Positions 3,770 through 46,210 of a stretch of DNA of 64,000 bases are shown here, piece by piece. This DNA comes from Phytoactinopolyspora halophila (GTDB taxonomy: Bacteria; Actinomycetota; Actinomycetes; Jiangellales; Jiangellaceae). How positions within the stretch are numbered: position 1 is the stretch's first letter; every line of letters starts with the position of its first letter. Under the pieces are notes generated by a model that worked only from the letters and a program-made list of their open reading frames with translations, was not told where the DNA came from and searched no databases. The position numbers and the translations under genes are program-made. The stretch lies in the NCBI RefSeq assembly GCF_003287285.1, contig NZ_QMIG01000018.1:1-64000 (forward strand). Direction: 5' to 3'.

Positions 3770-5926
3770 TCAACGGGTGGCATCCTTCGCCGCCGCTGCG
3801 TCCTCGCCGACCGCCTGGGCCTGGATGGCGGTGATCGCGATGGTGTTGACGATGTCGCGGACCTGCGCGCCCCGGGACAGGTCGTTCACGGGCTTGCGCA
3901 GACCCTGCAGCACCGGGCCGATCGCCACCGCGTCCGCGCTGCGCTGGACCGCCTTGTACGTGTTGTTTCCGGTGTTCAGGTCCGGGAAGACGAAGACAGT
4001 GGCCCGGCCGGCCACCTCGCTGTCTGGGAGCTTGGTGCGTGCCACGCCGGCGTCGACGGCCGCATCGTACTGGATCGGACCTTCGATCGACAGGTCGGGC
4101 CGGCGGCTGCGCGCGAGGGTGGTCGCCGTGCGAACCTTGTCGACGTCGGCGCCCGTACCGGATTCCCCGGTCGAGTACGAGAGCATGGCGACCCGGGGTG
4201 GCACACCGAACTCCTCGGCGGTCTGGGCGGAGGAGATCGCGATGTCGGCGAGCTGCTCGGCGCGCGGATCGGGGTTGACGGCGCAGTCTCCGTAGACCAG
4301 GACCCGATCCCGCAAGCACATGAAAAACACACTCGACACGGTCGAGACGTCGGAACCGGTCTTGATCACCTCGAATGCGGGCCGGATCGTGTCGGCCGTG
4401 GTGTGTATCGCCCCGGACACCATGCCGTCGGCGTATCCGAACAGCACCATCATCGTGCCGAAGTAGGAGACGTCGACGATCTGATCGTGGGCCGCTTCGA
4501 CCGTGGCGCCCTTGTGCGCGCGCCGTCTCGCGTACTCCTCGGCGAAGCGTTCCCGCCACGCGCTGCGGTGCGGGTCGATGATCGTCGCGGCGGACACGTC
4601 GGCACCCGCGTGAGTGGCGGCTTCTCGCACGCGGTCCGGATCGCCGAGCACGGTGAGGTCGGCGATCCCGCGTCGCAAGACCGAGTCCGCGGCCCGCAGG
4701 ATCCGCTCGTCGACACCTTCGGGCAGGACGATGTGTCGCCGGTGCTGCCGTGCACGGTCGACGAGCCGGTGCTCGAACATCAGTGGCGTGACGGCGCTGC
4801 TCTCGGCGACGTCGACCAGATCGAGCAACGCTTCCTCGTCGACGTGTTCATCGAACAGCGTCAACGCGGTTTCGACCTTGCGCGTCGCGTCCCTGGTGAG
4901 CCGGCCGCGGACGCCGGCGAGCGCGGTGGCCGTGGTGAAGGTGTCACCGGGCATGGTGATGATCGGCAGGTTGACGTCCAGGCCGTCGATCAGGTTCGTG
5001 ATCTGCGGTGGCAGGTCGAACCCGCCGTTGAGTACCACACCGGTCAGCGCCGGGAAGGTCCGCGCGGAATGTGCCATGAGGACGCCGATCAGGACGTCGG
5101 AGCGGTCCGATGGCGTGATGACCACGCTGCCCTCGGTCAGGCGGTCGAGTACGTGCGGAAGTGTCATTCCGGCGATGACGAAGTCGTGGACCTCACGGCC
5201 CAGATGGGCCGGATCCCCGCGGTACAGCGTGCCGCCGTGATCCACGAGGTCGGCGACCGTGGGGGCGGACAGCAGCTGCTCTTCTGGCAGCGCGAATGCC
5301 GGCGACATCGCGCCGAGGGCGGTCCGTATGGTGTCGACGGCGTCCGGCTCGACGCGGTTCGCCACGATTCCGAGCAGCTGCCCCGAGTTGGCGGCGACCT
5401 CGGTGGCCGCCGAGTCGGCCATGGCCCGGAGTTCTTCCGGCGAGCGGCCGCGTCCGTTCAGGACCAGGAGCAGCGGCGTCCCGAGGTTCGCCGCGATCCG
5501 CGCGTTGAACGAGAACTCGGTGGGGTTGTCGACGTCGGTGTAGTCGCTGCCGACGACGAGCACCGCGTCGCAGTGCTCGGCCATGCGGTGATACCGGTCC
5601 ACGATGGTGCCCAGCGCCGCGTCGCGGTCGGCGTGTACGTCCTTGTAGGTCACGCCGGCGCACATCTCGTAGGGCAGGTCGACGCCGTCGTGGGCGAGAA
5701 GGAGATCCAGGACGTAGTCCGAAGGAGCCGTGACGGCGGTGGAATCCGGTGACCCATCCTGCCCGGCCGGTTCGGCCGGCCGGGCGGTCCCGGCAGAGCT
5801 ACGTACGATCGGCCGGAACACGCCAACTCGTCCGATGCGCCTGGTCAGAGCCGTAAGAATGCCGAGTGCGACGGTCGACTTGCCCGTCTCTCCGGTCACC
5901 GAGGCGAGATAGACATTGCGGGCCAC
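3770..5926 (-). CDS. pta: phosphate acetyltransferase, long form
   Basis: Converts acetyl phosphate plus CoA to acetyl-CoA and phosphate. The 718 aa correspond to the long Pta architecture. An N-terminal P-loop, BioD-like domain carries SVTGETGKST at residues 9-18. A central DRTGG domain follows around residues 215-330. The C-terminal PTA catalytic domain starts near residue 390 and includes FGYADGMVSGAIHTTADTIR and FVFPDLNTGNN. The gene is convergent with the luciferase-like gene, leaving 41 bp. With ackA it completes the route from acetate to acetyl-CoA. Confidence 0.96.
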   Translation of the reverse strand: MARNVYLASVTGETGKSTVALGILTALTRRIGRVGVFRPIVRSSAGTARPAEPAGQDGSPDSTAVTAPSDYVLDLLLAHDGVDLPYEMCAGVTYKDVHADRDAALGTIVDRYHRMAEHCDAVLVVGSDYTDVDNPTEFSFNARIAANLGTPLLLVLNGRGRSPEELRAMADSAATEVAANSGQLLGIVANRVEPDAVDTIRTALGAMSPAFALPEEQLLSAPTVADLVDHGGTLYRGDPAHLGREVHDFVIAGMTLPHVLDRLTEGSVVITPSDRSDVLIGVLMAHSARTFPALTGVVLNGGFDLPPQITNLIDGLDVNLPIITMPGDTFTTATALAGVRGRLTRDATRKVETALTLFDEHVDEEALLDLVDVAESSAVTPLMFEHRLVDRARQHRRHIVLPEGVDERILRAADSVLRRGIADLTVLGDPDRVREAATHAGADVSAATIIDPHRSAWRERFAEEYARRRAHKGATVEAAHDQIVDVSYFGTMMVLFGYADGMVSGAIHTTADTIRPAFEVIKTGSDVSTVSSVFFMCLRDRVLVYGDCAVNPDPRAEQLADIAISSAQTAEEFGVPPRVAMLSYSTGESGTGADVDKVRTATTLARSRRPDLSIEGPIQYDAAVDAGVARTKLPDSEVAGRATVFVFPDLNTGNNTYKAVQRSADAVAIGPVLQGLRKPVNDLSRGAQVRDIVNTIAITAIQAQAVGEDAAAAKDATR

Positions 5927-14402: not shown

Positions 14403-14458
14403 CCGCTGATCATGAACACTAGTGGGGCTATGTAGCCGGATAGTGTTCATGATCATGG
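14403..14458. repeat. TGATCATGAACACTAG palindromic repeat, copy 1
   Basis: Arms CCGCTGATCATGAACACTAG and TAGTGTTCATGATCAtGG surround a GGGGCTATGTAGCC core that itself pairs. The copy is slightly degenerate at its right end. The TGATCATG arm supplies the TGA stop codon of punA at 14453-14455. It lies between punA and pmm, which run in the same direction. Confidence 0.85.
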
Positions 14459-15348: not shown

Positions 15349-15406
15349 CCACTGATCATGAACACAACTCGACGACATAGGACGACAAGTGTTCATGATC
15401 AGCGGA
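15349..15406. repeat. TGATCATGAACACTAG palindromic repeat, copy 2
   Basis: CCACTGATCATGAACACAAC and AAGTGTTCATGATCAGCGG flank a TCGACGACATAGGACGAC core. This copy lies in the divergent gap between punA and lpdA. A simple terminator role is therefore unlikely here; it would sit in the promoter or 5' leader of one or both genes. Confidence 0.85.
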
Positions 15407-16872: not shown

Positions 16873-18126
16873 TCAGAAGCCTCCGAGGTCGAGGCCACCT
16901 CCGAAGTCACCTCCGGCGTCACCGAAGCCACCACCGAAGTCGCCACCGCCCTCGCCGAAGCCACCACCGAAGCCGCCCGCGTCAGCGCCGGCGCCGTACG
17001 CCATCGGGGCGGCCATGGTGGTACCGAGCATCGTGCCCACCATCATCGCTGGTAGAACGGCGCCGAAGTAACCAGCGGCCCAGGGGCTGTATGCGGATCC
17101 GGCCTCCCAGTAGGGGCGACGCTCGCCGTCGCCAGCGGGCACGAGCCGAACGTCGGGGTCGGTTCCCTGCTTGAGGCGCAGCGCGTCGGCCTGGCACGCG
17201 GGTACGGGCCTGGGGGCGCCGCCTGCGGGTGCCCACTCGACATCCTCGACCGATGGGCCGTGTCTCGGGTCGAAGAAGCACGGGGCCCGCCGTTCCGGCA
17301 GGGCCGTGCCGTTCAACCGGGCCTCGACACAGCCGAGGAGCCAGCGGCCTTCTTCGAGCGCGTGGGTGACCGCCTTGAGGTCATCGGGCTTCTCCGCGCC
17401 GTCGGCGTACATCTTCGCGTTCTCGTAGAGATCGAGCGCGCGCTCGTACTCCCGTCGGGCCTCGACCGGGACGTTCGAGTTCGCCTGGACGTTGAGATCG
17501 AGTTCGGACAGCCGCTCGCCGTAGGCGGTGATGTCCTCGTCGAGTGCCCCGCGCACCTGCCGTAGCTGTGCCATCTCGCGGCTGCGCCGGTTCCGCCGGT
17601 ACAGCAGGTATCCTCCACCGCCGGCGGCGAGCAAGATGCCCAAGGGGAGGAGGCCACCGCCGCCCTCACTCGGCGCCGACGTGCCCGATCCGGCTGCCCC
17701 ACCGTTCTGTCCGGCGTTCTCGGCGGCGTTTTCCAGTCGCGCCGTCATCGTCTCGATGAACGTGAACGTATCGGGGGAGTTGTTGAGGATCTGTGCTGCT
17801 TCGGAACTCAGGGCCGCGTTGTCGAACTCGAAGGTGTACGCGTCACCTCGCACGTTGTTGGGATTCGTCGACGAGTAGAGCACGATGTGGGTGCCCTCCC
17901 CGTGTTCCGTGGCGAGTTGCTGCGCACCCTGTTGGCCCTGGGCTGCCTCGGGAAGCACGGCGAACCAGATTGGCGTGGAGGCGCCTTCGAGGAGCTCGGC
18001 AGCCTCATCTTGTTCATTGTCCAGGAACGGCGCGCCGGCCTCTTCCAGCTCCGCCTCGGCGTCGGGGTGGACGTAGAGGTGCGAATCCCTCAGTGCCTGC
18101 CCTGCTTCGTCCCACGCGTTCGACAT
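16873..18126 (-). CDS. uncharacterised membrane protein with YVxP ectodomain, C-F-x-[ND]-P-x-H-G motif and Gly-rich tail
   Basis: 417 aa from ATG 18126; an in-frame GTG at 18183 would add 19 residues. The N-terminal domain begins ALRDSHLYVHPDAEAEL and has PIWFAVLP. A single membrane segment (LLPLGILLAAGGGGYLLY, about residues 157-175) is followed by a basic stretch. The second domain carries CFFDPRHGP (C283, H289), then VPACQAD, where the last Cys of a possible zinc site is Asp. Another hydrophobic stretch and a GGFGGGFGEGGG-type glycine/aspartate tail end the protein. It is paralogous to the proteins at 18830-21996. I do not recognise a named function; membrane association with an external sensor-like domain is inferred. 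Confidence 0.7.
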   Translation of the reverse strand: MSNAWDEAGQALRDSHLYVHPDAEAELEEAGAPFLDNEQDEAAELLEGASTPIWFAVLPEAAQGQQGAQQLATEHGEGTHIVLYSSTNPNNVRGDAYTFEFDNAALSSEAAQILNNSPDTFTFIETMTARLENAAENAGQNGGAAGSGTSAPSEGGGGLLPLGILLAAGGGGYLLYRRNRRSREMAQLRQVRGALDEDITAYGERLSELDLNVQANSNVPVEARREYERALDLYENAKMYADGAEKPDDLKAVTHALEEGRWLLGCVEARLNGTALPERRAPCFFDPRHGPSVEDVEWAPAGGAPRPVPACQADALRLKQGTDPDVRLVPAGDGERRPYWEAGSAYSPWAAGYFGAVLPAMMVGTMLGTTMAAPMAYGAGADAGGFGGGFGEGGGDFGGGFGDAGGDFGGGLDLGGF

Positions 18127-18236
18127 ACCACCATCATCCAACTTGTGGATGTGGCGTGCCAGACTCTGGTCGATCGGGCTCACCCGCCGGTGTCACCCAC
18201 GCGCTTGGAAGATCAGGCCCAGGTGCGTTCACCAGC

Positions 18237-18632
18237 TCAGTGTGAGGACTGCTCCACCAGATGCTCGGGTGTCACCCGCACGGTGACTCGACGCTCGTCC
18301 TCGGCCAGCTCCCGGAAGTCTGCCCCGGTGTACTTGTGCGCGAGCCGGTGGATCACCTCGTTGCCGTCGTCGGTGGTGAACGTCGCCGTGCCGCTGACGC
18401 TGGCCCAGCTGAAGGCATGGTCGGGGTCGAGCACGCTCACCGAGACCGATGGATTTTCCCGCAGGTAGCGCTCCTTGGCCCGGCCGATCGCCGTGTTGAA
18501 CAGGACGGTGTCGCCTTCGACGTCTAGCCACACCACGGAGTTGTGCGGGCTCCCGTCCGGGCGGATGACGGTGACCCATCCCAGGATCGGCCGGGCGAAC
18601 AGGGAACGTGCATGGTCGGTCAGTGTCGGCAT
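18237..18632 (-). CDS. PPOX-class pyridoxamine 5'-phosphate oxidase-like protein
   Basis: A 131-aa split-barrel flavin/F420-binding protein: LGWVTVIRPDGSPHNSVVWLDVEGDTVLFNTAIGRAKERYLRENPSVSVSV. This is the typical layout of F420-dependent (FDOR-B-like) proteins in actinobacteria. The ATG at 18632 is chosen because a GAGGAG ribosome site lies 8-9 nt upstream; the longer ORF to 18677 has none. It stands alone between two members of the YVxP membrane family, with an inverted repeat just upstream. The substrate is unknown. Confidence 0.85.
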   Translation of the reverse strand: MPTLTDHARSLFARPILGWVTVIRPDGSPHNSVVWLDVEGDTVLFNTAIGRAKERYLRENPSVSVSVLDPDHAFSWASVSGTATFTTDDGNEVIHRLAHKYTGADFRELAEDERRVTVRVTPEHLVEQSSH

Positions 18633-18702
18633 CGAGCGGTTCTCCTCGTCGATATGGAGTCGATATGGATCGGCCAATGTGCCGGCACCAGAGTAGCGGG
18701 AA

Positions 18703-18777
18703 CGACATCGCTACCCAGACGTGCGCCAAACCGGCCTGTGTGGGCGGAAAAACCGCACGTCTGGATATCGATGTCGG
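18703..18777. repeat. long imperfect inverted repeat (second class)
   Basis: Left arm CGACATCGCTACCCAGACGTGCG pairs with CGCACGTCTGGATATCGATGTCG with three mismatches across a 29-bp spacer. Each is 23 bp and lies between same-strand genes, after the stop codon at 18830. The AGACGTGC core also occurs in the inverted repeat at 41.5 kb. Terminator function is inferred. Confidence 0.7.
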
Positions 18778-18829
18778 GTCTGGGCGATCAAGGTGGGATC
18801 GAAGGCAGCCGGGCCGGTTACGTGACCGG

Positions 18830-19969
18830 TTACATGCCGGCGAGGACTCGCTCGACCAGGTTGGAACGCAACGCCCCGTATCCCGTCGATGCCCACGGTT
18901 CGAATCCGGATTCATAGTAGGGCACGTCCTGGCCGTCCACGGCGACCTGGAGGATATCCGGCTCGACACCGTCGCCGACCTGCTCGGCACATATCGTGCA
19001 CGCCGCCACCAGCGTTCCTGTCGAAGCCACGTCTCCGCTTCCCGAACGCTCACCGGGCAACGCGACGTTCTTCGCGGCGGCCCCGTGCAGGGGGTTGAAG
19101 AAGCAGGGTGTCGGTAGTGGTTGCCGGCGTAGCGACTCGTTTCCCACGGCGCGACGCAGGTGCGCCTCTCCCATCTCGGCCAGGACCAGCGCGCCCACGG
19201 TGTCGGCGAAGCCGGCACTGCCCTCCTGCGTGCGCCGCGCCGCGTCGTAGGCGTCGAGCGCGGACCGGTACTCGGCCAGCGGCCGCCCGCTCGCAGGCAC
19301 GTCCACGCTGTCGAGCCGCTGTCCGAGCTCCAGGATCGCCGTTCGGGCCTGCTCGTCGACTGCGTCCATCCGCGCGCCGCGCACCGCTTCGCGTACGTGT
19401 GCCGGCACCGAGAACGCCGTGGCCACTCGCTGGCTGCCGCGGCGTATCCGGGCGCGATGTGCGAGAGCCAAGATCGCCGCTGCCACCAGGATGAAGCCGA
19501 CGGTCGCGACGGAGAGTCCGAGCAGCGCTTCCGTATCCGACGAGGACTCCGTTTCCGTCCTCTCTTCTCGCATCTCCTGGTGCACCTCGTCGCCGGTGCC
19601 GGTGGCGACGAGTTCGACGAAGCGTTCGAGCTTGGCGCCAGCCCCGGATTCTTCTTGCGCGACGCTGCGAGCGCCGGATTGGCTGGCGACGTCGTATTCG
19701 CGCACGGTCAGGTAGTCGTTCCAGTCCACCGAGGCGTAGACGCCCGGCTCGCCGAGCTTTTCGTGCACCAGCGCCAGGAGCTGTCCGGCGTCACCGCCGA
19801 ACTCGTCCTCGTAATCCATCGACACGTACACGACGTAGATGGGCACGGGCGAGCCGTCGACCAGCTCGGTCAGGGTCTCGACCCGTTCCTCGGGCAGTGC
19901 ACCCGGTTCGACGTGCACCGGAGATTCGGCGAGCTCGTCCGCGATAGTGGCGGCCCGGTCAGTCGACAT
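18830..19969 (-). CDS. uncharacterised YVxP / C-x5-H...CxxC membrane protein
   Basis: 379 aa from ATG 19969, which has a GAGGAGACCG ribosome site. N-terminal ectodomain-like region: LAESPVHVEPGALPEERV followed by PIYVVYVSMDYEDEFGG. One membrane helix (LSVATVGFILVAAAILALAHRAR) is followed by a basic cytoplasmic stretch, a helical region, then CFFNPLHG (C289, H295), ACTICAEQ (C324, C327) and PYYESGFEPWASTGYGAL. The C-x5-H plus CxxC set could bind zinc. The start overlaps the stop of the preceding gene by 11 bp, so it is co-translated with the two upstream genes. Homologues are hypothetical proteins as far as I can tell. Confidence 0.72.
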   Translation of the reverse strand: MSTDRAATIADELAESPVHVEPGALPEERVETLTELVDGSPVPIYVVYVSMDYEDEFGGDAGQLLALVHEKLGEPGVYASVDWNDYLTVREYDVASQSGARSVAQEESGAGAKLERFVELVATGTGDEVHQEMREERTETESSSDTEALLGLSVATVGFILVAAAILALAHRARIRRGSQRVATAFSVPAHVREAVRGARMDAVDEQARTAILELGQRLDSVDVPASGRPLAEYRSALDAYDAARRTQEGSAGFADTVGALVLAEMGEAHLRRAVGNESLRRQPLPTPCFFNPLHGAAAKNVALPGERSGSGDVASTGTLVAACTICAEQVGDGVEPDILQVAVDGQDVPYYESGFEPWASTGYGALRSNLVERVLAGM

Positions 19970-20543
19970 CGGTCTCCTCGGGAATCCACTGGGTACGATC
20001 CTCGTGGAACATCCGCTCCAGGGCGCTGGCGAAGCTTCCCTCGGGGACCACCCGATCGTGCCACGCCAGGGCATCACCGTCGCGGTCGACCGACGACAAC
20101 CGCCGATCCTGATCGATGACGGCATAGTAGCCGTCGAGGCCGACCTCATCGGAAAGTGCGATCACGGCCGCATCCCGGTTCCCGCCCATGCCGTCCGTCT
20201 TGACGACGGGGGCAACGACGACGAATGTGGGCGGCCCGGATTCGAGCGCGTCCACGATGTCGTCTCGTTCGTCTGGTGGCAGCAGGTAGGACAGCGCGGG
20301 ATCGACGTAAAGGGGCGATTCCTCCAGGGCGTCGGCGGCATCCTGCAACCGCTCGTCGGCACCGGGAAGGTCCGCGAACTCGGCCAGCTCGGCCCGGGTC
20401 GTCCACGGATGCTCGGGACCTTCGGGCTCGCGGTTGGCGAACCACGACACGCCCGCCCCGACGAGCCCGGCGAGCGCCCCGATGGCGAGGACCGCCCGGT
20501 GCCTGCTGCGCGTCTCGTGTCGCCCCTGCCGTTCACCGTTCAT
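19959..20543 (-). CDS. uncharacterised small membrane-anchored YVDP-domain protein
   Basis: 194 aa from ATG 20543, with a GGAGG ribosome site 7 nt ahead. Near the N-terminus is a membrane anchor (AVLAIGALAGLVGAGVSWF). The rest is the same external domain as its neighbours: LEESPLYVDPALSYLLPPDERDDIVDAL, then PTFVVVAPVVKTDGMGGNRDAAVIALSDEVGLDGYYAVID. It lacks the C-terminal cysteine/histidine domain. It overlaps both flanking genes by 11 bp (20533-20543 and 19959-19969), a matched spacing that suggests coupled translation at fixed ratio. Confidence 0.7.
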   Translation of the reverse strand: MNGERQGRHETRSRHRAVLAIGALAGLVGAGVSWFANREPEGPEHPWTTRAELAEFADLPGADERLQDAADALEESPLYVDPALSYLLPPDERDDIVDALESGPPTFVVVAPVVKTDGMGGNRDAAVIALSDEVGLDGYYAVIDQDRRLSSVDRDGDALAWHDRVVPEGSFASALERMFHEDRTQWIPEETDVD

Positions 20544-21996
20544 GCGCCAGCCTCCCCGGAAGTGCCGTTCCGGCTCGGGCGCCGGCGAGGACGAGGTCGG
20601 CGACGTCGTCGCGCAGGGCACCGCAGCCGGAGACCGACCACACGTCTTGCCGATGGTAGTACGGCTGCACCTTCCGGCCGTCCCGGATCCGCAGGATGTC
20701 GGGCAGTTCGCCCCGCTGCACGGCGCCGGCACACCGCTCGCAGGCGGGCACCCGCACCGACGACGGATCGCCCGGTACCGGGGTGGTGGTCGCGTGCTCG
20801 CCGTGCATCGGGTTGAGGAAGCACGGCCGCGGCGGATCCTGCGGCCCTTCCCGGGCGGCGGCTACGGCGTACTCGGCGAGCACGGCGCCGCCCACGATGT
20901 CGGCGGGGTCATCACTGTGGCGCAAGGCCAATGCCGCGTCGGCGTACGTGCGAACCCGCTCCCGGTGTCCCGCGTCGGTTTCCGGGGCATGCTCACCTTC
21001 ACCCGGGGGTCCGCCCGGAGCTGTGGCGAGCGGGTCGGTCTCGGGTTCGCGCCGCCACCGGTCGAGCTCGGCGAGCGCGGCCTGGAACCGCTCGCGTGCG
21101 GGGGCTACGTCCGTGGGCTCGCCGATCGCCGCCTGGCGCGCGGCCCTGTGGTTGAGATACGCGTTCGCGACGACGGCGACGGTGATGGCAGCGACGATGC
21201 CGACGGCCACGTGGGGGCGGTCTGGCGACGTCTTCGACGGCGACGCCGTCAGCTCGCGCTCCGCCTCGGAGGCGAAGAAGTCGACCTTCGTGCGCAGCAT
21301 CAGCGGGTCCTCGGCGAGCTCGGCGACGGCGTCGACGGCGATCTCCTCGTTGTCCGGCGCGAACGGATCGCGTATCTGCGGGGCCAGCCAGAGGTATGCT
21401 CGCGCTTCGGCCGCGGGGGTGAGCTCGCCGTCCACCTCGTAGGTGGCGCCGTGCAGGGCGATTCCGGCGTCCTCGGGTGCGACGTCGTCGAGCCCGGGCG
21501 CGATCGCGTGCACGGTCTGATCGATCCCGACGACGTAGAGCGCGTCCTCGCCGATCCGGTTGTGCAGCAGCCTGGCCATCTCCTCCGGTTCCATGAACGG
21601 GTCGTCCTCGCGCCGGGGCAGGTCGTCACCGGGGAGGCGATTGACCAGGACGACATACGCCTGGTGGGGGAAGTCGTCGAGGTCGGAGCGGAGTAGTTCA
21701 CGCACGGCGGCGGCGTCGCCGTTGCCCATGGCCCGATCCATCACGATGGGGTCGTCGTCCAGCAACTCGACGATCTGATCCATCCGCCCGTCGACGTCGG
21801 TGACCTCGACCCCGACGTCTGCGCCGCGTTGGCCGTCGTGCTCGCTTCGGCTCGCCATCCCGGCGGGCCCAGCCGTGATCGCCAGCGCGGGTGACGCCAG
21901 CGAGACGGCCGTCACCGCGGCCGCGCCGAGGGCCGCCGGAACCGCTGGATTCGCCCGGGCGGGCCTGCGCCAGAGTCCCTTCGCACGCCAGAACAC
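20533..21996 (-). CDS. uncharacterised exported/membrane protein with C-x5-H...CxxC domain
   Basis: 487 aa from GTG 21996. Residues 16-40 form a signal peptide or anchor (AALGAAAVTAVSLASPALA). The external domain contains QAYVVLVNRLPGDDL and EDALYVVGIDQTVHAIAPG. A second helix lies near residue 268 (HVAVGIVAAITVAVVANAYL). The C-terminal domain has CFLNPMHG (C392, H398), VPACERCAG (C419, C422) and QPYYHRQDVWSVSGCGAL. It begins only 4 nt after the stop of the carboxylase alpha-subunit gene, so it is probably co-transcribed with it. The function is unknown. Compared with its paralogues the YVDP motif at the domain start is less obvious. Confidence 0.7.
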   Translation of the reverse strand: MFWRAKGLWRRPARANPAVPAALGAAAVTAVSLASPALAITAGPAGMASRSEHDGQRGADVGVEVTDVDGRMDQIVELLDDDPIVMDRAMGNGDAAAVRELLRSDLDDFPHQAYVVLVNRLPGDDLPRREDDPFMEPEEMARLLHNRIGEDALYVVGIDQTVHAIAPGLDDVAPEDAGIALHGATYEVDGELTPAAEARAYLWLAPQIRDPFAPDNEEIAVDAVAELAEDPLMLRTKVDFFASEAERELTASPSKTSPDRPHVAVGIVAAITVAVVANAYLNHRAARQAAIGEPTDVAPARERFQAALAELDRWRREPETDPLATAPGGPPGEGEHAPETDAGHRERVRTYADAALALRHSDDPADIVGGAVLAEYAVAAAREGPQDPPRPCFLNPMHGEHATTTPVPGDPSSVRVPACERCAGAVQRGELPDILRIRDGRKVQPYYHRQDVWSVSGCGALRDDVADLVLAGARAGTALPGRLAHER

Positions 21997-22000
21997 CGGT

Positions 22001-23797
22001 TTAGCGTGCCGTTTCGTCCCTGATCTCGCAAATGATGCCGCCGTTGGAGACCGTGGCCCCGATCTCGGCGTCGAGCGCGGTGACGGTTCCCGACTTGTGC
22101 GCGTTCAGCGGCTGCTCCATCTTCATCGCTTCGAGGACCACGATGGGGTCGCCGGCGGTCACCTTCTGGCCTTCTTCGGCGACCACCTTGATGATGGTGC
22201 CCTGCATGGGGGAGACGAGGGAGTCACCGGTGGCCGAGGTGGCGCCGGACGTACTGGACTTGCGCCGGACAGGTTTGCGGGTGGTGGCACTCGAGCCCGT
22301 CCCGGTCGAGCTGGCGCCGAGCCCGGCTGGCAGGACCACGTCGAGTCGCTTGCCCCCGACCTCGACGGTTACGCGTTCCCGCTCCGCCGGCGCCGCGGTG
22401 TCCTCGGCTCCGGTCGCGGGGTGCGGCTGGATGGTGTTGTGCCACTCCGTCTCGATCCACCGGGTGTGGACGGTGAACGGCTTGCCCGGATCGGCCGGGG
22501 CGAAAGCGTCGTCATCGAGTACGGCACGGTGAAACGGGATGACCGTGGCCAGGCCGGACACCTCGAACTCGGCGAGTGCCCGGCGGGAGCGCTCGATCGC
22601 CTGCTCGCGATCGGCACCGGTCACGACGAGCTTGGCCAGCAGGGAGTCGAAGTTCTGCCCGATCACGCTGCCCTGTTCGACGCCCGCGTCGAGGCGCACG
22701 CCGGGCCCGGACGGCGGCCGGAACGCGGTGACCGGGCCGGGGGTGGGCAGGAAGTTGCGCCCCGCGTCCTCGCCGTTGATGCGGAACTCGATGGAATGCC
22801 CCCGCACTGGCGGGTCGTCGTAGCCGAGTTCCTCGCCGTCGGCGATGCGGAACATCTCGCGCACCAGGTCGATGCCGGTGACCTCTTCGGTGACCGGATG
22901 TTCGACCTGCAGCCGGGTGTTGACCTCGAGGAACGAGATGGTGCCGTCGGCGCCGACGAGGTACTCGCACGTCCCCGCTCCGACGTAGCCGGCCTCGCGC
23001 AGGATGGCCTTCGACGCGCGATAGAGCTCGGCGTTCTGCGCGTCGGTCAGGAACGGCGCCGGGGCCTCTTCGACGAGCTTCTGGTGGCGGCGTTGCAGGG
23101 AGCAGTCACGCGTGGAGACCACGACGACGTTGCCGTGCTCGTCGGCCAGGCACTGGGTCTCGACGTGGCGGGGGCGATCGAGGTAGCGCTCGACGAAACA
23201 CTCGCCGCGACCGAACGAGGCGACGGCCTCGCGTACCGCCGAGTCGTAGAGCTCGGGTATGTCGTCGATGGTGCGGGCGACCTTCAGGCCGCGCCCGCCT
23301 CCGCCGAACGCGGCCTTGATCGCAACCGGCAGTCCGTGCTGCTCGGCGAAGGCGACGACCTCGTCGGCACCGGACACCGGCTCGGGAGTTCCCGCGACGA
23401 GGGGCGCTCCCGCTCGTTGGGCGATGTGCCGGGCGCTGACCTTGTCGCCGAGGGCGGTGATGGCGGACGGTGGCGGGCCGATCCAGGTCAGCCCGGCCGT
23501 GCCCACGGCCTCGGCGAACTCGGCGTTTTCCGCGAGGAAGCCGTAGCCCGGGTGCACGGCATCGGCACCCGCACGCGTGGCGATGTCGATGATCTTGCTG
23601 ATGTCCAGGTAGGTCTCGGTGCTGGTTTCCCCGCCGAGGGCGTAGGCGTCGTCGGCGAGGCGGGCGTGTGGCGCGTCCCGGTCGGGGTCGGCGTAGACGG
23701 CGACGCTGCCAATCCCCGCGTCCTTGCAGGCGCGGATGACCCGCACGGCGATCTCACCGCGGTTTGCGACAAGCACCCTGGTGACGCGACGTTTCAC
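22001..23797 (-). CDS. accA: acyl-CoA carboxylase alpha subunit (biotin carboxylase + BCCP)
   Basis: A 598-aa fusion of biotin carboxylase and biotin carboxyl carrier protein. The N-terminal [18 protein letters not shown], the ATP-grasp [11 protein letters not shown] loop, the catalytic [17 protein letters not shown] and [18 protein letters not shown] are present. At the C-terminus a low-complexity linker (residues about 475-515) leads to the biotinyl domain with the attachment lysine in [12 protein letters not shown]. It supplies carboxybiotin to one or more of the beta subunits nearby (25.3 and 29.7 kb). Which substrate (acetyl-, propionyl- or other acyl-CoA) cannot be told. The gene leads the operon that includes the three membrane proteins downstream. 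Confidence 0.95.
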
Positions 23798-23910: not shown

Positions 23911-23968
23911 CCGCTGATCATGAACACTAGTCGAGTACATAGGTCGGTTAGTGTTCATGATCAGCGGG
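23911..23968. repeat. TGATCATGAACACTAG palindromic repeat, copy 3
   Basis: A full copy: CCGCTGATCATGAACACTAG, core TCGAGTACATAGGTCGGT, then TAGTGTTCATGATCAGCGGG. It lies in the divergent promoter region between accA and the acyl-CoA dehydrogenase gene, 48 bp before the latter's start. Confidence 0.9.
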
Positions 23969-26803: not shown

Positions 26804-26879
26804 CCCCAGTTCCGCTGATCATGAACACTAGGCGACCACATAGGTCGCCTAGTGTTCATGATCAGCGGAACCGGGGCTA
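26801..26879. repeat. TGATCATGAACACTAG palindromic repeat, copy 4, extended to 79 bp
   Basis: The common repeat is extended so that the whole span between two convergent genes is one palindrome. The arms run 26801-26837 and 26843-26879 with a single mismatch and a 5-nt loop (ACATA). The outermost triplets are the TAG stop codons of the carboxyltransferase gene (plus strand) and maf (minus strand). It is a strong candidate bidirectional terminator. Confidence 0.92.
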
Positions 26880-29344: not shown

Positions 29345-29407
29345 GCCCCGCTGATCATGAACACTAGTCGACCTATGTACTCGGCTAGTGTTCATGATCA
29401 GCGGGGG
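29345..29407. repeat. TGATCATGAACACTAG palindromic repeat, copy 5
   Basis: CCCCGCTGATCATGAACACTAG, core TCGACCTATGTACTCGG, then CTAGTGTTCATGATCAGCGGGG. It ends two bases before the accE stop codon and lies between same-strand accE and the DUF885 gene. Confidence 0.9.
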
Positions 29408-32630: not shown

Positions 32631-32690
32631 CCCCGCTGATCATGAACACTAGTCGGGCATAGGTCGCTTAGTGTTCATGATCAGCGGGAG
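32631..32690. repeat. TGATCATGAACACTAG palindromic repeat, copy 7
   Basis: CCCCGCTGATCATGAACACTAG, core TCGGGCATAGGTCGC, TTAGTGTTCATGATCAGCGGG. It occupies the divergent gap between the lipoprotein gene and ppc. Confidence 0.9.
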
Positions 32691-45245: not shown

Positions 45246-46163
45246 ATGAAGAACATGATTCGTCAGAGTGCCACGTTGATCAGCGTCCTCGCCGCAGGTG
45301 CCGTGCTCGCGGCGTGCGGCGGCAACGATCAGACCGAGGTCGCCACAGGCGACAGTGGCAGCCCGATCAAGATCGGTGTGGTTGGTGCCAGCGAGGACTA
45401 CTGGCAGATCTTCAGCGATCTCGCTGCCGAGGAAGGTATCGAGATAGAGCTGGTGAACTTCACCGACTACACGCAGCCCAACCCCGCGCTGTCGCAGAAC
45501 CAGCTCGACCTCAACCAGTTCCAGCACATTCAATACCTCGCCGCGTACAACGTCGCCAACGACGAGGACCTCACGCCGATCGGCGCGACCGCGATCTATC
45601 CCCTCGGCTTGTACTCCACGGAGCACACGTCGATCGAGGACATTCCGGACGGCGGCGAGATCGCGATTCCCAACGATGAGACGAACCAGGCCCGGGCGCT
45701 TCTCGTCCTCCAGGATGCGGGGCTGCTCACCCTCGAAGGTGGCGGGGACTCGACGTCGCTGCCGTCTGACGTCGTCGAGGAAGAGTCGAAGGTGACGGTG
45801 ACGCCCGTTGCTGCCGAGCAGACTGCCGTGGCGCTGAACAGCGTGGATGCGTCGATCATCAACAACGACTTCGTCGAGGACGCCGGCCTGGAGCCGACGG
45901 ATGCGCTGTATCAGGACGATCCCGATTCGCCCGCGGCGCAGCCGTACATCAATGTCTGGGCCGCGCGTGCCGGGCACGAGGACAACGAGACGTTCCAGAA
46001 GTTGATCGACATCTATCACGAGGACGAGGTTCAGGAGGCGGCGCTGCGGGCGTCGGGTGGTACGGCGGTGTTCACGGAGAAGCCGGCCTCGGAACTCCAG
46101 GAGATCCTCGATGAGGTCGAGTCCAACCTGGAAGCCACCGACGACGACACCACTTCCCCATGA
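45246..46163 (+). CDS. metQ: methionine ABC transporter substrate-binding lipoprotein
   Basis: 305 aa. Signal peptide with lipobox (LISVLAAGAVLAAC, Cys near residue 24) anchors it to the membrane. The NlpA/MetQ domain follows: IKIGVVGASEDYWQIFSDLAAEEGIEIELVNFTDYTQPNPAL, LNQFQHIQYLAAYN, LYSTEHTSIEDIPDGGEIAIPNDETNQARAL, and ASIINNDFVEDAGL. It binds methionine for MetN/MetI. The stop codon TGA is the first triplet of a perfect 23-bp hairpin repeat placed between metQ and metN. A Met/Cys-rich leader lies upstream. Confidence 0.95.
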   Translation: MKNMIRQSATLISVLAAGAVLAACGGNDQTEVATGDSGSPIKIGVVGASEDYWQIFSDLAAEEGIEIELVNFTDYTQPNPALSQNQLDLNQFQHIQYLAAYNVANDEDLTPIGATAIYPLGLYSTEHTSIEDIPDGGEIAIPNDETNQARALLVLQDAGLLTLEGGGDSTSLPSDVVEEESKVTVTPVAAEQTAVALNSVDASIINNDFVEDAGLEPTDALYQDDPDSPAAQPYINVWAARAGHEDNETFQKLIDIYHEDEVQEAALRASGGTAVFTEKPASELQEILDEVESNLEATDDDTTSP

Positions 46164-46210
46164 TCATGAACATTAACGGCTCCGTGCGGAGCCGTTAATG
46201 TTCATGATCA
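46161..46210. repeat. TGATCATGAACATTA palindromic repeat, copy 8, perfect hairpin
   Basis: A 23-bp perfect stem (46161-46183 with 46188-46210) closes a GTGC tetraloop. The outer 11 bases TGATCATGAAC match the dispersed family, but the inner arm (ATTAACGGCTCC) differs. It lies within the metQNI operon and provides the metQ stop codon. It would form a very stable RNA hairpin, perhaps damping metNI expression relative to metQ. Confidence 0.92.

Follow-up and report, generated by a model that had tools for sequence, protein, structure and literature searches.

What is the function of four neighbouring membrane-protein genes, P1, P2, P3 and P4, of Phytoactinopolyspora halophila? The genes lie in a 64,000-nucleotide stretch of DNA (the window: positions 1 to 64,000 of contig NZ_QMIG01000018.1), and a sequence-only reading of that stretch had described their products as one family with an external domain, a membrane helix and a Cys/His domain. 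We find three features that were not part of that description: a predicted TPM fold of the ectodomain, a span of the family across Actinomycetota, and, in deep lineages, adjacency to pspA and pspAA. We see about an even chance that the P1 family is a Psp-type receptor or assembly factor that joins a TPM and a zinc domain in a single actinobacterial membrane protein, and that Jiangellaceae have expanded it to a triad, P4-P3-P2.

Results

P1 to P4 as one family

The four genes stand where the sequence-only reading had placed them, all on the minus strand and all with open reading frames: P1 at 16873..18126 (417 aa), P2 at 18830..19969 (379 aa), P3 at 19959..20543 (194 aa) and P4 at 20533..21996 (487 aa). 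That they form one family is borne out by BLASTP (P2 vs. P4, 2e-17; P1 vs. P2, C-terminal part, 2e-12; P2 vs. P3, ectodomain, 3e-7; P1 vs. P4, 1e-5) and by predicted structures of P1 and P2, in which the order of elements is identical; unrelated folds, the outcome that the earlier reading had named as fatal to the family, are not what the AlphaFold models of these two show. Judged from sequence, P1, P2 and P4 have a common layout of ectodomain, membrane helix, helical hairpin and C-x5-H...C-x2-[CD] domain, to which P1 (C-x2-D) adds a hydrophobic stretch and a Gly-rich tail. P3 comprises only an N-terminal signal-anchor helix (residues 17-35) followed by a TPM-like ectodomain. In P4 the Cys/His domain is preceded by an N-terminal hydrophobic segment (residues 22-40), a degenerate TPM-like ectodomain and a membrane helix (residues 263-281).

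Details of the earlier description require correction. The S-x-[LV]-[YH]-V-x-P motif ascribed to all four genes is present in three (SHLYVHP in P1, SPLYVDP in P3), but P4 has DDDPIVMDR at that place; the order of ectodomain and then one helix is reversed in P3 and is complicated in P4 by the extra N-terminal segment; and the aromatic tail, PYY...W...GYGAL, reads GCGAL in P4 and PYWE..SPWAAGYFGAV, followed by the Gly-rich end, in P1. Comparison of P1-P4 with Pfam and NCBIfam models and sequence searches of PDB gave no usable match, and a phage search was empty. Assignment of P3 to the CU044_5270 family was rejected: the match scored 25.5 of 100 bits and was confined to the N-terminal helix region.

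A predicted TPM fold in the ectodomain

AlphaFold (AF2) models of P2 (mean pLDDT 88.9; 56 sequences in the alignment) and P1 (mean pLDDT 83.3; 47 sequences), which are not fully independent because their alignments partly overlap, share a single order of elements: helix, strand, helix, strand, helix, two strands and helices, and finally the membrane helix, helical hairpin and small beta/Cys-His domain. In Foldseek searches of PDB, the top five matches of the P2 model are all TPM domains (5anp, BA41, twice; 2kpt, cg2496; 2kw7, PG_0361; and 7tbr), with probability 0.97-1.00 and TMt 0.52-0.61, and the probability drops to 0.41 at the sixth match. For the P1 model the best match, and the sole credible one, is the TPM domain 2kpt (probability 0.98; next match 0.47). 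We conclude from the models that the 'YVxP' ectodomain of P1 (residues 1-141; 17704..18126) and of P2 (residues 1-146) is predicted to be a divergent TPM fold, on the Rv1476 side of that superfamily. The ectodomains of P3 and P4 are probably TPM-like, by homology to the modelled members.

Profile comparisons give weaker and mixed signals. The A3 family profile finds one bona fide PF04536 TPM protein at 2.7e-6, over ectodomain plus helix, and the A1 family profile finds one Rv1476 protein at 6.7e-6, both for a fixed database size of 10,000 and with part of the score coming from the membrane helix. The PF04536 model has no match above cut-off in P1-P4 or in the whole window genome. The PF20381 (Rv1476) cut-off is passed by none of P1-P4, and that model gives weak matches in 6 of 56 family members (best, 0.043); a distant relative in locus L218 passes it (40.2 vs. 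26 bits). Direct homology to classical TPM proteins from profile comparison alone was considered and set aside: the scores are barely above controls, and we therefore do not claim it. The L218 relative (L218:5537-6829, with pspA at 4700-5458) thereby links the family to mycobacterial Rv1476, and has lost the C-x5-H motif.

The alignment also bears on whether the ectodomain could be an extracellular-side enzyme (a phosphatase or ATPase/ADPase), with a C/H/C/[CD] domain that just stabilises the protein. Among 56 sequences no polar residue of the ectodomain is near-invariant, the best-kept positions being small, hydrophobic or structural, which argues against an enzyme; the phosphatase reading is, moreover, doubted in the literature (PMC12419801). 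We regard an enzyme as the least probable of the alternatives weighed here.

A conserved Cys/His domain

The putative metal site comprises, on the minus strand, C283-x5-H289 ... C311-x2-D314 in P1 (17185..17280), C289-x5-H295 ... C324-x2-C327 in P2 (18989..19105) and C392-x5-H398 ... C419-x2-C422 in P4 (within 20533..21996). The C-x-x-[CD] pair of the earlier reading thus has its second Cys in P2 and P4, and Asp at that place in P1. In 56 diverse sequences the only invariant columns are C289, H295 and C324 (P2 numbering); at position 327, 42 of them have C and the other 14 have D. A set of 169 distinct relatives was chosen by the first two ligand positions, so that invariance of C and H in it is partly by construction while the third and fourth positions are independent; in this set the third Cys is kept in 169 of 169, and the fourth position is C in 56, D in 113 and nothing else, with at least five changes between C and D on the tree. 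Such strict alternation of Cys and Asp, which a metal site tolerates, is a metal-ligand signature. We conclude that the C/H/C/[CD] set is probably a metal site, most likely for zinc; the proposal of zinc binding in the sequence-only reading gains indirect support from this column conservation. In the models the C-x5-H turn comes first, then a beta hairpin, then C-x2-[CD] where a helix begins, an order that resembles that of a treble-clef finger, and the four conserved ligands (C, H, C, [C/D]) of a treble-clef-type site are found in the sequence columns.

The same columns speak to a redox or metal-stress sensor, in which the thiol state of the Cys/His domain would signal across the membrane. 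The C-x2-C pair in P2 and P4 and the strict Cys conservation would suit such a sensor, but the second Cys is repeatedly replaced by Asp and never by another residue, as fits a metal ligand, and most members, having Asp at the fourth position, cannot form a C-x2-C disulphide. We consider a sensor of this kind improbable, ranking it above the enzyme only.

Other arrangements were seen as well. L209:4331-7157 and L212:3-2388, from another class, hold tandem family pairs, with C-x2-C in one member of the L209 pair and C-x2-D in the other. In one Jiangellaceae genome (L048:6505-8594) a helix-plus-Cys/His protein without ectodomain lies beside a full-length one, and the pair adjoins a sigma-factor-like gene; near a P1 orthologue, L052:8729-10246 couples pentapeptide repeats with the family's membrane helix and helical hairpin but lacks a Cys/His domain.

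Membrane topology

The membrane helices of P1 (residues 157-175; 17602..17658, identified from hydropathy and charge) and P2 (residues 152-170) are followed, within 12 residues, by net charges of +4 and +5, respectively. This favours an N-terminus outside and a C-terminus inside. Besides the N-terminal hydrophobic segments of P3 and P4, signal-peptide-like N-termini are present in Streptomyces P1 and in a P2 relative from genome G057.

Adjacency to pspA in deep lineages

In the deep lineages L213-L218, the neighbour of the P1-family gene is PspA_IM30 in 6 of 6 first-found loci (1.6e-24 to 1.3e-31), and PspAA follows in three of the six. In a larger sample, pspA adjoins a P1-family gene in 11 genomes with five family codes (f47, f83, f59, f71 and f73), usually together with pspAA; both co-directional and divergent cases occur, indicating that the adjacency has survived inversions. 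Because distant relatives lie directly beside pspA, a membrane-repair gene, the family probably belongs to the membrane-maintenance machinery. Also in favour of a Psp link, the window genome has one PspA, on another contig (C11), and no PF04536 protein. In other Actinomycetia, classical PF04536 TPM coiled-coil genes, too, are found at distances of up to about 2 kb from pspA (G001:C112, G023:C1 and G028:C67).

The arrangement has a precedent. In Bacillus subtilis, YdjH and YdjG are needed for membrane recruitment of PspA, deletion of either abolishes recruitment, and YdjH interacts with PspA, YdjI and YdjG (PMC8581546); YdjH serves there as the membrane anchor for PspA. According to PMC11237479, TPM and zinc-ribbon proteins are encoded in pspA operons and YdjH is a TPM protein; neither the TPM domain nor its association with pspA is new. 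Like B. subtilis pspA-ydjGHI, the P1 family combines a predicted TPM domain and membrane helix, a zinc-type domain and, in part of the family, a pspA neighbour; unlike YdjH and YdjG, which are two proteins, it unites both features in one, its motif is C-x5-H...C-x2-[CD] rather than that of the YdjG zinc ribbons, no band-7 partner was seen, and the neighbours in Actinomycetia differ from those of the B. subtilis Psp locus. With PF04536 proteins (cg2496, BA41, PG_0361, TLP18.3/Psb32) the family shares the predicted ectodomain fold and, for the actinobacterial ones, a similar TPM-helix-coiled-coil-Gly-rich layout, but the profile similarity is weak and PF04536 proteins have no cytoplasmic zinc-like domain. 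With Rv1476 it shares distant ectodomain homology and an N-terminal domain that lacks a signal peptide and precedes one membrane helix, but Rv1476 has no Cys/His domain. The PspAA/PspA dyads of Actinomycetota, whose genes directly adjoin P1-family genes in deep lineages, differ from the P1 family in that the latter would be a third, membrane-bound component. We found no mention of the P1 family in those parts of Psp surveys that were searched, no family model for a fused TPM-helix-Cys/His protein, and no description of one in the main text of the papers searched.

Spread of the family and origin of the triad

P1 has 571 relatives among the scanned contigs, with Streptomyces and Kitasatospora forming the majority of the best 80, and the P1 family is present in 15 of 149 sampled Actinomycetota genomes (E up to 0.001), including other classes. 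A first contig scan with P2 as sole query gave no match; whole-genome searches found the P4-P3-P2 triad in several Jiangellaceae, the close relatives of the window genome, and twice in some genomes, with P3 conserved as the middle gene. In a tree built on the C-terminal half, the orthologues of P1 cluster in a single clade (100/99), separate from a P2/P4 group. By these sequence comparisons the family is real and widespread, beyond a local curiosity; P1 is most likely its ancestral, phylum-wide member and P4-P3-P2 a Jiangellaceae expansion.

In the window, P1, although of the same family as P2 and P4, is a separate gene, split from the triad by a small gene unrelated to P1-P4 (18237..18677, minus strand), which by gene order is a conserved P1 neighbour in Jiangellaceae and by eye looks flavin/F420 pyridoxamine-oxidase-like. 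Directly upstream of P4, 4 bp apart, lies an accA-type biotin carboxylase/carrier gene (22001..23797, minus strand). From the location of accA, P4, P3, P2, the small gene and P1 on one strand, we infer that the triad probably arose by tandem duplication next to P1. The overlaps of P4 with P3 (20533-20543) and of P3 with P2 (19959-19969) are exactly 11 bp each, as the sequence-only reading had noted, and ribosome-binding sites rated good/plausible precede P3 (GGGGAGG) and P2 (GAGGAG); the gene arrangement indicates that P4-P3-P2 are translationally coupled. This coupling and the conserved P4-P3-P2 gene order support the putative complex that the earlier reading had proposed.

Such a complex need not involve PspA. 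The three proteins could form a hetero-oligomer at the cell surface that has no relation to PspA and serves, for instance, in envelope assembly: the genes of the triad are coupled, their order is kept in Jiangellaceae even where relocated, its Cys pair is C-x2-C throughout, and it stands outside the P1 clade (100/99). Its domain architecture, however, is that of the P1 family, so that a wholly different role would need extra assumptions. We rate this unlikely, though ahead of the redox sensor.

The accA neighbourhood

The accA gene, located like lpdA and other neighbours by tblastn, lies upstream of P1 on the same strand in 27 of the 27 P1-bearing loci where it was found, in many immediately adjacent, and accA-P1 loci of Actinomycetia outside Streptomyces mostly have lpdA on the far side. 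The constancy of this arrangement, together with the one-strand order in the window, suggests that P1-P4 might serve AccA and membrane-lipid supply, by tethering or assembling the carboxylase or by reporting envelope-lipid state, with the PspA linkage secondary or lost. Yet the Streptomyces loci examined contain no accA at a distance of up to about 6 kb, the Jiangella triad is located elsewhere, among transporter genes, and the deep-lineage neighbour is pspA, not accA; accA adjacency may also reflect an inherited gene order along the chromosome, lpdA and pnp having been retained too. A carboxylase or lipid-supply link is the main rival to the Psp-receptor reading, foremost among the alternatives but in our judgement unlikely; the two are compatible, because both concern membrane upkeep.

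Separately, the window contains seven dispersed, mostly intergenic palindromes (14408-14454, 15354-15400, 23916-23962, 26817-26863, 29353-29399, 32638-32682 and 46162-46209) with a consensus of about CGCTGATCATGAACACTAGTCGA-N-CTAGTGTTCATGATCAGCGG and arms spaced by about 35-38 bp; 17 copies of the core GTTCATGATC are present vs. 0.12 expected.

Discussion

According to the Psp-receptor reading, P1-P4 would each span the membrane once and carry a TPM-fold domain on its extracytoplasmic side; P1, P2 and P4 would also have a helical hairpin in the cytoplasm, with a small domain at its end that binds metal, most likely zinc. The TPM domain would sense or hold partners on the envelope side, and the hairpin and zinc domain would bring PspA, or peripheral factors related to it, to the membrane, by analogy with YdjH plus YdjG. 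P4-P3-P2 would probably be a hetero-complex, to which P3 would add an extra TPM domain, and members away from pspA may have retained the function.

Several observations weigh against this reading. No pspA is nearby in the window, in any examined Streptomyces or Jiangellaceae locus, or in deep-lineage loci L209-L212 and L243-L248 (some contigs being short); and accA, not pspA, is the conserved neighbour in Actinomycetia outside Streptomyces. The L218 gene adjoins pspA without a C-x5-H motif, and the zinc domain is therefore not essential to the association. Jiangellaceae P1 and P2 have no evident signal peptide, so that export of their ectodomains rests on the positive-inside rule; most Rv1476 proteins examined have the same N-terminal arrangement. 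The Foldseek E-values for P1 and P2 are all >0.001 (0.03 and up), and the TPM assignment accordingly rests on consistency, with one fold class on top for two models; hhalign scores are weak against the classical PF04536 TPM set (12-15%) and uneven against Rv1476 relatives (0.9-61%).

A bolder form of the Psp-receptor reading is that the P1 family is the missing PspA membrane receptor in most Actinomycetota, a single protein with a TPM sensor outside and a zinc module inside, and that Jiangellaceae have, beside P1, a three-protein complex of two full receptors and one TPM-only modulator. We put this forward tentatively, as possible but doubtful.

In each system studied so far PspA depends on a membrane receptor, and apart from those of Proteobacteria, Bacillus and mycobacteria few such receptors are known. 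The models and alignments give a large protein set for which Pfam has no model a predicted fold, with a TPM domain outside and a conserved metal-site motif inside. The P1 family, phylum-wide, present in Streptomyces and adjacent to pspA in deep lineages, is a concrete, testable candidate for the PspA receptor.
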